In this document: piece after piece, positions 24,718 through 47,214 of the stretch
Position numbering within the stretch: the first letter of the stretch is position 1
How the letters are laid out: each line of letters starts with the position of its first letter
Source: Erythrobacter sp. HL-111
Lineage (GTDB): Bacteria > Pseudomonadota > Alphaproteobacteria > Sphingomonadales > Sphingomonadaceae
Assembly (NCBI RefSeq): GCF_900105095.1
Contig: NZ_LT629743.1
Location: 1,116,001 to 1,180,000 of the forward strand
DNA length: 64,000 nucleotides
Direction of reading: 5' to 3'
Translations under genes and position numbers: made by a program
Notes under the pieces: model-generated
What the model saw: the letters and a program-made list of their open reading frames with translations, nothing else
Databases searched by the model: none
What the model was told of the DNA's origin: nothing

Positions 24718-24846
24718 TCCCGCACGGGCGCCGCCGCATCGGGCGCTCGCCACCCACCTGAAGCGCGCGTCCCGGCGAAGGAGATTCGCGCTTATCCACA
24801 GCGGCGACTGCCTATCGCGCCAGTCTTCTGCATGTAACAAAGAAAA

Positions 24847-24874
24847 GGCGTCCGGAATTTCCCGCCGGACGCCC
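24847..24874 (-). terminator. Candidate terminator on the minus strand
   Basis: GGCGTCCGG and CCGGACGCC flank a 10-base loop; on the minus strand the stem is followed by TTTTCTTTG. No annotated minus-strand gene lies just upstream, so it may end an antisense or unrecognised RNA, or insulate the following RNA locus. Confidence 0.6.
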
Positions 24875-24932
24875 CATAAGTCCTCAATGCGATGAAGGCT
24901 CATTGTGACGCGGGAAAAGATTTTTTCAAGTC

Positions 24933-24961
24933 TTGCACAGCCCCCTGCCATGATTCACATA
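24933..24961 (+). promoter_or_regulatory. Possible promoter of the small RNA locus
   Basis: TTGCAC (24933-24938) is followed after 17 bases by CACATA (24956-24961). The -35 is good and the -10 weak. It would start a transcript near 24968 leading into the extreme Shine-Dalgarno sequence. Confidence 0.3.
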
Positions 24962-25047
24962 GAGGACGAGGCCAGCGGCGAACGCGGTTCTCGGCCCCCG
25001 GTGAAACGGCAGGGTCTTGGCACACTAGCGCGAAAGGAGGTGATCCG

Positions 25048-25104
25048 ATGTCTCATGGTTCAGCAGAGAGGTCGGCAAGTTTCCGCGCGGAGCACTATCG
25101 GTAA
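25048..25104 (+). CDS. 18-codon small ORF with extreme ribosome binding site
   Basis: ATG at 25048 begins the peptide MSHGSAERSASFRAEHYR and ends at TAA. The AGGAGG core lies 7 bases before the ATG, optimal spacing, and the pairing with 16S rRNA extends over 15 bases. The peptide is basic and polar without a signal or membrane segment. Such strong initiation for so short an ORF suggests either a regulatory leader or a real micropeptide. Too short for homology judgement. Confidence 0.5.
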   Translation: MSHGSAERSASFRAEHYR

Positions 25105-25152
25105 GACGGTACCCCTAGAGGCTTCGTGAGCGGCACTTCCTGGCCGCTGACC

Positions 25153-25215
25153 ATGAAAGGGCGTTTCCATCCGCCACGGCACAAGGGGCGGGCTGGAAGC
25201 GCCCTTTTCATTTTT
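25153..25215 (+). terminator. Rho-independent terminator of the small RNA locus
   Basis: GAAAGGGCGTTTCCA and TGGAAGCGCCCTTTTC pair (one G-T) around a loop of about 25 bases and are followed by ATTTTTT. It ends the transcript before the dispersed repeat and ilvE. Confidence 0.8.
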
Positions 25216-25369
25216 TGCTTTGCGTCTTTCGTCCGCACGCCATCCGGCGTGCGATGTCCTCGGCGCCGACGGGATTGCGGGCGGGTGGTGGCCCTTGCGG
25301 CCTTTCGGGCCGGACTGGCAGGATATGCGCGCGGGCTCCCTCGGACACACCCGAAAACAAGCGCTGCGC

Positions 25370-46161: not shown

Positions 46162-47214
46162 TCAGGGCAGGTCCAGCGCGGCCTTGACCTCGCGCCAGTC
46201 GACGATCTTGTAGTTCTGCTGCCCTTCGAGCGGTTCTTCGTTGTCGTCGTGGATCGCCAGCGCTCCCTCGGGATAACGTCCTATCGGCCCGGACCAGGCA
46301 TCCAGCCCGTCGGTGTGGGTAACGCCGTCGATGTCGTCGCGCGCCACGACCGTGAAGCGCCCGAGATAGGTCTCGCCTTCTTCGGTGATCCGGAAGACCG
46401 GAAAGGTATCGTCCCCCTGCGAGGAGGCGATGAGGTAGCGTTGCCGGCCGTCGCGCATGATCGTCAGGCCCTCGATGTCGTCGGTGATGCGCTGGCGGTC
46501 GACCGATGCCACCTTGGTGGGAGTGGGCGAGGCGGCAGGGTCGAAATCGAACCGCCAGATCGCCGCGTTCTCTTCGCCGACGTAAAGAACGTCGCGATCG
46601 TCGTCGACCACGCAGCCTTCGAGCTGCGAGGGGAGCTTCAGCTGCCTGACCATTTCCGCGGCACCGGGCTCGGCCCCGTTCGCGAGGCGCCAGATCTTGA
46701 TGTCGCCCTGCTTGTTGTTGGCGATCAGGTAGAAGCCGTCGCTGCGGCGGCCCATGCAGAAGCCATAGGGCTCGCCGATGTCGGTCTCGATGAAGCCATA
46801 GTCGCGGGTCTCGAGCGTGCGGGGATCGAACAGGTAGAGATTGATCCCCATCCGCTCGTCATTGGTCGCAGCGACCAGCACGAAGTCGTCGCGCCCTTCC
46901 GCCGAAAAACCGGTCCGCAGGTCGACATTGTTGAGTGCCCCGCTCGCGAGGAACTGGCGAACCGATCCGTCGAGATCGTGCACGTACAACCCGTCGGTCT
47001 TGTCGGTTCCGAACATCACCGCGCGCGTCGGGTCGCTTTCGTCGCTCCAGAGCGCGGGATCGTCGGCATCGACGGCAGGATCGGTGTCCACCCGCGTTTC
47101 GGCCAGAGCCGCCACGGCCACCGGGGTTTCCCCCCCGGCCCAGGCGGGGCCGCGCTGCGTGGTCGAACAACCCAGAAGACATATCGACGCGCAAACAATA
47201 AATGTAAGTCGCAA
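46162..47214 (-). CDS. Beta-propeller phytase (3-phytase), lipoprotein
   Basis: Protein of 350 residues. A lipobox ends at Cys16 (ICLLGC). The mature protein carries the phytase signatures: DADDPALWSDESDPTRAVMF, FGTDKTDGLYVHDLDG, YGFCMGRR, LEGCVVDDDRDVLYVGEENA and the C-terminal GALAIHDDNEEP. BPPs hydrolyse phytate with calcium. The start is TTG at 47214, supported by GGGAGG five bases upstream. It is divergent from a TonB receptor gene, an arrangement seen in marine and freshwater proteobacteria that use phytate. Confidence 0.93.
   Translation of the reverse strand: MRLTFIVCASICLLGCSTTQRGPAWAGGETPVAVAALAETRVDTDPAVDADDPALWSDESDPTRAVMFGTDKTDGLYVHDLDGSVRQFLASGALNNVDLRTGFSAEGRDDFVLVAATNDERMGINLYLFDPRTLETRDYGFIETDIGEPYGFCMGRRSDGFYLIANNKQGDIKIWRLANGAEPGAAEMVRQLKLPSQLEGCVVDDDRDVLYVGEENAAIWRFDFDPAASPTPTKVASVDRQRITDDIEGLTIMRDGRQRYLIASSQGDDTFPVFRITEEGETYLGRFTVVARDDIDGVTHTDGLDAWSGPIGRYPEGALAIHDDNEEPLEGQQNYKIVDWREVKAALDLP

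Follow-up and report, generated by a model that had tools for sequence, protein, structure and literature searches.

A probable CC2171-type RNA in Erythrobacter sp. HL-111 with a ribosome-binding element complementary to the whole 16S rRNA tail

The locus described here lies in a window of 64,000 nucleotides, the whole stretch of Erythrobacter sp. HL-111 DNA that was analysed (assembly GCF_900105095.1, contig NZ_LT629743.1, positions 1,116,001 to 1,180,000), and all coordinates refer to this window. Its neighbours encode a protein with an S4 and an FtsJ-like methyltransferase domain (-), which we take to be TlyA-like, a proline-rich protein (+) and a class IV aminotransferase (+). Read on the + strand from 25032, GAAAGGAGGTGATCC is followed by G and ATG, 18 codons, TAA, a helix-rich stretch, a terminator-like hairpin and a T-rich run that ends at about 25216 (Table 1). 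The first 15 bases are exactly complementary to the 3′ tail of alphaproteobacterial 16S rRNA over its full single-stranded length. A preliminary description of this DNA had claimed an RNA-like locus with such a perfect complement at ideal distance from the ATG of an 18-codon ORF, followed by a stem-loop and a terminator and preceded by a terminator-like hairpin on the opposite strand. All of these features are borne out: the complement is exact, a hairpin and a terminator-like hairpin are both predicted 3′ of the ORF, although a simple consensus terminator scan limited to loops of 3-8 reported none at the locus, and the fold z-score is -4.3. The opposite-strand hairpin, oriented for leftward transcription, is found at about 24842-24875 (-) and reads GGCGTCCGG-CGGGAAATT-CCGGACGCC, then TTTTCTTT. 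Similar hairpins occupy the same place in several of the 15 loci compared, and there is no evident leftward gene to its right.

Table 1. Positions of the predicted features within the window
Feature	Position	Strand	Basis or detail
Promoter-like region (inferred), CAAGTCTTGCA ... ATGATTCACAT	24927..24960	+	Conserved block upstream of the RNA, similar in genus relatives
15-nt complement of the single-stranded 16S rRNA tail (GGATCACCTCCTTTC), extended Shine-Dalgarno	25032..25046	+	GAAAGGAGGTGATCC, exact
18-codon ORF, MSHGSAERSASFRAEHYR	25048..25104	+	ATG at 25048, TAA at 25102-25104
Helix P1, 5′ strand, codons 3-5, extendable into codon 6	25054..25062	+	Own-versus-swapped pairing test, alignment
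Helix P2, 5′ strand, last base of codon 13 to first stop-codon base	25086..25102	+	Covariation
Helix P2, 3′ strand	25111..25128	+	Covariation
Hairpin P3, GCGGC 25130-25134 with GCCGC 25143-25147, loop with CACTTCC	25130..25147	+	Alignment, fold
Helix P1, 3′ strand (TGACCATG), immediately 5′ of the terminator	25148..25155	+	Own-versus-swapped pairing test, alignment
Intrinsic-terminator-like hairpin and T-rich run; arms 25156-25169 and 25194-25208	25156..25216	+	Sequence, fold

A scan of the window finds no second exact copy of GAAAGGAGGTGATCC. Under lax settings three further matches with three mismatches appeared, and as four or more matches were also obtained in 10 of 100 shuffled sequences, the exact copy alone counts. 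In the whole 3.19-Mb, one-contig genome AAGGAGGTGATC occurs once, the rRNA genes apparently not being contained in the sequence searched, where a universal 16S motif found no match. Since the organism's own rRNA genes are unreadable in this sequence, rRNA operons carried on plasmids in other Alphaproteobacteria served to check the tail. The query, a 53-nt 16S end terminating in GGATCACCTCCTTTCT, matched 237 records, 209 of them at 99% identity or above and with Sphingobium among the genera counted; the 15 listed of the 237 (Rhodobacter, Rhizobium, Azospirillum and others) agree with it at all 53 positions. The duplex with the 16S tail reaches -28.8 kcal/mol, the top value when all 3207 ATG/GTG sites in the window are compared. 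ATG 25055, which lies behind the same 15-nt element, shares this value, and the next strongest element reaches -19.4.

The promoter-like block suggests a putative transcription start near 24967, and the predicted RNA would measure about 185-250 nt; a simple sigma-70 scan of the + strand made no promoter call at 24927..24960. The region from 24920 to 25031 forms a long leader that is strongly conserved at genus level and contains a CAAGTCTTG palindrome, then GAGGCCAGCGGCGAACGCGGTTCTCGGCCCCCGG; the loci of other groups compared carry a short CAACAA-like leader in its place.

At Rfam cut-offs, no family matched over the RNA, either at the locus or in 18 loci of relatives. A search by E-value threshold matched 25023-25205 to RF01867, "caulobacter sRNA CC2171", over the full length of the model (1-159) with 45.5 bits and an E-value of 3e-8, which does not reach the gathering score of 75 bits. 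By these scores the locus is a distant relative of RF01867 and not a member as Rfam defines membership, and the preliminary description, which did not recognise it as a known family, has to be corrected on this point. Its identity as a CC2171-type RNA is highly probable. Both share the 5′ block GAAAGGAGGUGAUCC-N-RTG-UCUCAU, the Rfam consensus containing the 15-mer, a GUG and UCUCAU, and the same long-range stem, which joins the ORF start to the pre-terminator segment, as well as the terminator hairpin are present at the locus. The two differ in the start codon (GTG there, ATG here) and in ORF length (20-25 codons in the Caulobacter-type set, 18 here); further differences are the covarying helix P2 of the locus and the typing of RF01867 by Rfam as an sRNA gene. 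Matches to rteR, BjrC68 and ftsZ-DE lie far below the respective cut-offs and were rejected.

The Caulobacter sRNA CC2171 reportedly originates from Landt et al. 2008. A search of open-licence papers, represented mostly by their abstracts, yielded no function for RF01867 and no statement on a 16S-tail complement in this family. The accessible portions of PMC5082802, PMC5521070, PMC5869019 and PMC3751524 do not mention the family, which appears as a table row in the available part of the Rfam 15 paper. According to the accessible text of a study on Mesorhizobium huakuii (PMC5596092), RNA-seq products were obtained for 34 of 35 predicted non-riboswitch sRNAs, with only MH_s6 absent; the RF01867 match MH_s33 is among those reported with products.

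A search of related genomes and covariance modelling had been proposed as checks in the preliminary description, and conservation in relatives is confirmed. The DNA query 24940-25220 finds matches in the own genome and in all 36 same-genus genomes searched, and all 30 genus loci read, out of 37 matching genomes including the own, display the exact 15-mer, GATG and 18 codons. In 24 genomes from other families of the order the same query returned one 22-base match to a terminator arm, which we regard as chance. Scanning the genome contigs of the collection for GAAAGGAGGTGATCCNATG revealed at least 119 loci; among the matches listed, nearly all are from Alphaproteobacteria (Sphingomonadales, Mesorhizobium and relatives, Hyphomonadaceae, Azospirillum and others), with L119 and L120 falling outside this class and L146 assigned to Pseudomonadota only. 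AAGGAGGTGATCCNRTG is carried by 64 of 385 genomes in an even sample of the class, the backward pattern by none. In a sample of the phylum, this exact pattern is present in 47 of 86 Alphaproteobacteria versus 1 of 213 other Pseudomonadota, and again the backward-read control gave 0.

With the RF01867 model, 85 of the 385 class genomes are positive at E≤0.001, 13 of them over the cut-off, so that by either measure most genomes of the class are without a match. Among 14 control genomes the model matched in Caulobacter vibrioides only, where the score exceeds the Rfam cut-off; therefore a laboratory model is at hand. Of 92 places listed, 82 were read with identical sequences kept, and 76 carry the 15-mer within three mismatches (48 exact, 21 with one mismatch). 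A start codon is present in all 76, at the same distance in 74 (ATG 38, GTG 31, TTG 5) and one base nearer in two. The remaining six comprise L153, whose exact element raises the total to 77, and five places without the element that were treated as chance (L250, L252, L255, L261 and L262). A model (R1) built from 32 Sphingomonadaceae sequences with the terminator left out matched 57 of 64 genomes of the same family, whereas 83 genomes from the order's other families gave no match; at least one of the seven family genomes missed (G685) has the exact pattern. Applied to 60 loci of other groups, R1 matched 58 at E≤1 and 22 at E≤0.001 (best 33.3 bits), these loci being largely chosen for the element and many weak matches spanning little beyond the 15-mer. 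The only genome seen with two element-bearing copies (L170, L245) is G072 from the window's family, in which a Caulobacter-type partner of this pair (MSHCH..., GATCG) stands beside a Sphingomonadales-type one (MSHGS...).

Because the RF01867 model and the contig-scan pattern both contain the 15-nt element, its conservation is partly selected for. In 72 distinct members from across the class, information content amounts to 1.35-2.0 bits inside the 15-mer compared with 0.28 just before and 0.57 just after it. Positions 3-11 and 14 are invariant, here as in all 76 members, and position 12 differs in 12 cases, always by A to G, with G still able to pair with the 16S U. The element is followed by (A/G/T)TG and then mostly by a Ser codon. 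When all 76 members are counted, the 15-mer has 37 substitutions, of which 22 preserve the pairing with 16S and 15 break it, a proportion that by itself does not prove 16S pairing. Identical sequences were collapsed for the counts of information content, neighbourhood, peptide selection, Shine-Dalgarno folding, P1, ORF length and GGRUC. The tests of Shine-Dalgarno folding, stem search, P1, ORF length and GGRUC used 199 of 258 element-bearing loci; the 59 left out are duplicates, lie near a locus end, exceed 330 nt or have no terminator-like end. The sequence of L037 is truncated where its locus stops.

The comparative data also separate the length of the ORF from its coding content. Frame 0 varies least in length: of 75 distinct Sphingomonadales-type ORFs, 69 consist of 18 codons and the rest of 16-20, and in both other frames the position of the first stop is spread out (mode share 40% and 15%). 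In the Caulobacter-type, ORFs span 20-25 codons and in the MSS-type 21-29 (5-95% range), both tighter than their own +1 frame; the MSS-type +2 frame meets a stop after 1-2 codons in most members, through the conserved start region. In 28 nearest Sphingomonadales-type pairs, 9 silent versus 60 replacement single-base codon changes were counted, with a neutral expectation of 26% silent, and third codon positions change least. For the other two groups, nearest-pair sums over chosen ORF length classes (Caulobacter-type 23-25; MSS-type 22, 23, 25 and 26) gave 35 silent versus 94 replacement changes (27% silent), which is close to neutral. No purifying selection on the amino-acid sequence is seen in these nearest-pair counts. 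In addition, the same nucleotides AGCCTCT underlie EQPL in some members and, in a different frame, ESLS in others, and therefore the RNA and not the peptide is kept there. The comparisons demonstrate that the length of the predicted ORF is under selection and its predicted peptide is not visibly so.

These observations bear on the proposal that the locus is a small mRNA for a functional micropeptide, of 18 aa here and about 20-30 aa in most other groups, which is strongly made via the extended Shine-Dalgarno. Conserved ORF length and start-codon degeneracy agree with it, and so would Ser2, which is found in 71 of the 76 RF01867-search members with all four synonymous TCN codons in use; a W-hydrophobic-A-S motif recurs in many Caulobacter-type ORFs. 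In the accessible text of Schrader 2014 (PMC4117421), two earlier Caulobacter ncRNAs, names not given there, are reported as translated. The excess of replacement over silent changes in the Sphingomonadales-type set, the near-neutral ratio elsewhere and the frame switch between EQPL and ESLS nevertheless make a functional peptide unlikely, and of the micropeptide envisaged in the preliminary description weak support is left, with no sign of purifying selection on its sequence. Selection probably acts on ribosome engagement rather than on the peptide.

In the 32 Sphingomonadaceae aligned, helix P2 displays two-sided compensated changes in 12 of 15 pairs, and in the window 14 of the 15 pairs form. 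Covariation of the whole structure is 0.289 versus 0.164 in shuffles, was as high in 0 of 500 of them and drops to at most 0.055 when the structure is slid; the compensated changes are partly clade-inherited, so that the number of events is below that of cells, and scores of this kind can be raised by relatedness. Helix P1 is invariant in the same 32 sequences, and its support therefore comes from comparison between groups, in which the two strands co-vary (CAUGGU/ACCAUG, CAUUGUC/GACAAUG, GUGAG/CUCAC, AUGAGAU/AUCUCAU). In a terminator-anchored test of own against swapped segments, with four of the 199 members skipped, pairing was better with the own pre-terminator window for 48 of the 55 five-prime strand types (p 6e-9), and the three segments used as controls yielded p 0.05 (the segment adjoining P1), 0.30 and 0.46. 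This test replaced a first, unanchored stem search in a wide window that skipped 8 of 199 members and gave 13.6 versus 11.0 in shuffles for the Sphingomonadales-type and 13.2 versus 8.9 for the Caulobacter-type, the signal being weak for the MSS-type (9.4 versus 8.7) and the rest (9.3 versus 8.4). Of 151 distinct members, 84 form at least five consecutive P1 pairs, and at ORF nucleotides 8-12 several Watson-Crick types occur. The comparisons establish predicted helices that hold codons 3-6 and, in the Sphingomonadaceae set aligned, pair the ORF end with the 3′ UTR.

In predicted folds the Shine-Dalgarno core is paired more often than it is free, with mean probabilities of 0.59-0.74 by group. 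A single conserved internal partner that sequesters this core was rejected, as no common partner emerged among the 101 members listed of the 199 folded. The motif GGRUC is enriched in the ORFs of the Caulobacter-type (11 of 17 versus 2.6 expected), the MSS-type (18 of 53 versus 7.8) and the rest (20 of 46 versus 6.8), and more weakly in Sphingomonadales-type ORFs (19 of 74 versus 11). Internal pairing may thus be a further cause of GATCC conservation; as a general feature, a GAUCC-GGRUC hairpin was discarded, the motif being enriched relative to simple shuffles but not universal. Inside the ORF, GAGGTCGG at 25068-25075 is invariant or nearly so in the 32 aligned members and unpaired in P1-P3; RNAalifold proposes CCGAT at the start codon as a possible partner.

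A terminator-like hairpin of its own and varied neighbours would also suit an ordinary trans-acting, base-pairing sRNA, in which the ribosome site only stabilises or times the RNA and target mRNAs are bound through the 3′ part, for instance by base pairing of its pyrimidine-rich P3 loop. The typing of RF01867 as an sRNA and the M. huakuii match point in the same direction, and CACTTCC is present in 19 of the 32 aligned members. This loop is, however, changed in the other 13 (for example to GCTTACC or GTCGCATTG), and conservation peaks at the ribosome-binding element and not at a 3′ seed, which leaves the trans-acting sRNA an improbable account of the locus. A leader or attenuator is suggested by the class IV aminotransferase gene (PF01063, ilvE-like) that follows on the same strand and has homologues downstream in 10 of 161 loci. 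Across these 161 loci, as far as crude ORF calls in GC-rich DNA allow, the neighbours belong to many unrelated clusters and the downstream gene lies on either strand, in 78 of the 136 loci with both neighbours called on the opposite one. No conserved co-directional downstream operon was found across the loci compared, and the ORF lacks any run of Ile, Leu or Val codons. A leader peptide for the aminotransferase gene, the preliminary description having raised a leader peptide as one option, is rejected on account of the variable neighbours, and control of this gene by attenuation is most improbable. Since the neighbours differ across loci, the RNA is probably free-standing. That the Shine-Dalgarno arose by chance in intergenic DNA free of constraint has the small ORF size as its sole argument; conservation, covariation and class-wide distribution refute this reading, and we assign it a negligible probability.

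A length-kept ORF without a kept peptide, placed behind a full complement of the 16S tail, suggests that ribosome capture and not the peptide matters. Our best reading is a structured small RNA that would require ribosome engagement and brief translation, acting as a translation-gated regulator or a 30S trap; as a whole, including the assignment of the locus as the Sphingomonadaceae form of CC2171-type RNAs, this explanation appears modestly probable. It is close to the ribosome-sequestering regulator named as one possibility in the preliminary description. Very long Shine-Dalgarno pairing is expected to hold the 30S subunit strongly. A 30S subunit would thus bind the 5′ end of the emerging RNA tightly, and without a ribosome the finished RNA would fold on itself and hide the start region, the closed form covering codons 3-6 inside the 30S footprint. 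A ribosome at the start codon would open P1 and a ribosome at the stop codon P2, corresponding to initiation and a short translation run, and the RNA could alternate between ribosome-held and closed forms. As the helices at the start and stop regions could both be opened by a ribosome, the RNA would hence be translation-gated, perhaps as a 30S trap or gauge. Its output might consist of free 30S subunits being tied up or reported, or of a 3′ part that is exposed in one form only. A function as sensor or trap is put forward tentatively. Still more speculative is the wider proposal that an Alphaproteobacteria-wide RNA meets the ribosome by capturing free 30S subunits via the full 16S tail, and that its choice between a brief round of translation, whose peptide would be irrelevant, and closure on itself serves as a gauge or buffer of translational capacity.

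If the preferred reading holds, the best-kept part of RF01867-type RNAs would be a start codon together with a ribosome-docking element that spans the entire 16S tail, and the family would provide a rare and testable example in which translating is itself regulatory instead of a route to a product. The family is already in Rfam as an sRNA; the comparison adds the docking element for the 16S tail and an ORF length that appears to be selected without the peptide. Small RNAs with short ORFs are also represented by Pos19 of Rhodobacter sphaeroides (accessible text of PMC5036791), by rnTrpL/peTrpL of Sinorhizobium meliloti, whose rnTrpL is translated as judged by Ribo-seq (available part of PMC10117765), and, as far as the source consulted in part describes it, by Spot 42. 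In contrast to these, the peptide is unconserved here and the ribosome site extends over the full length of the 16S tail. Pairing with 16S rRNA beyond the usual core is likewise described for the extended Shine-Dalgarno of Staphylococcus aureus, which the accessible part of PMC13009471 presents as a species-wide initiation feature, whereas here a single genome site carries AAGGAGGTGATC in the sequence searched, from which the rRNA genes appear to be absent. In Caulobacter, 75.4% of starts have no Shine-Dalgarno, as stated in the available text of Schrader 2014 (PMC4117421).

A few further observations concern matches outside the RNA itself. ARAGORN places a tRNA-Lys (ctt) at 46531-46617 (-) of the window, which is absent from the Rfam matches at cut-off. 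A viral match (L031) encodes a different, 54-aa ORF and was set aside. In a Geobacteraceae MAG (L120), the same element precedes a 46-aa peptide with CHAP repeats, a locus that is probably unrelated. In six loci, three of them from Azospirillum (L065, L097, L107, L186, L204 and L214), the same 16S-tail element stands before ORFs of at least 50 codons that are secreted-peptide-like, with a signal-peptide-like start, and there it is perhaps reused before another gene.
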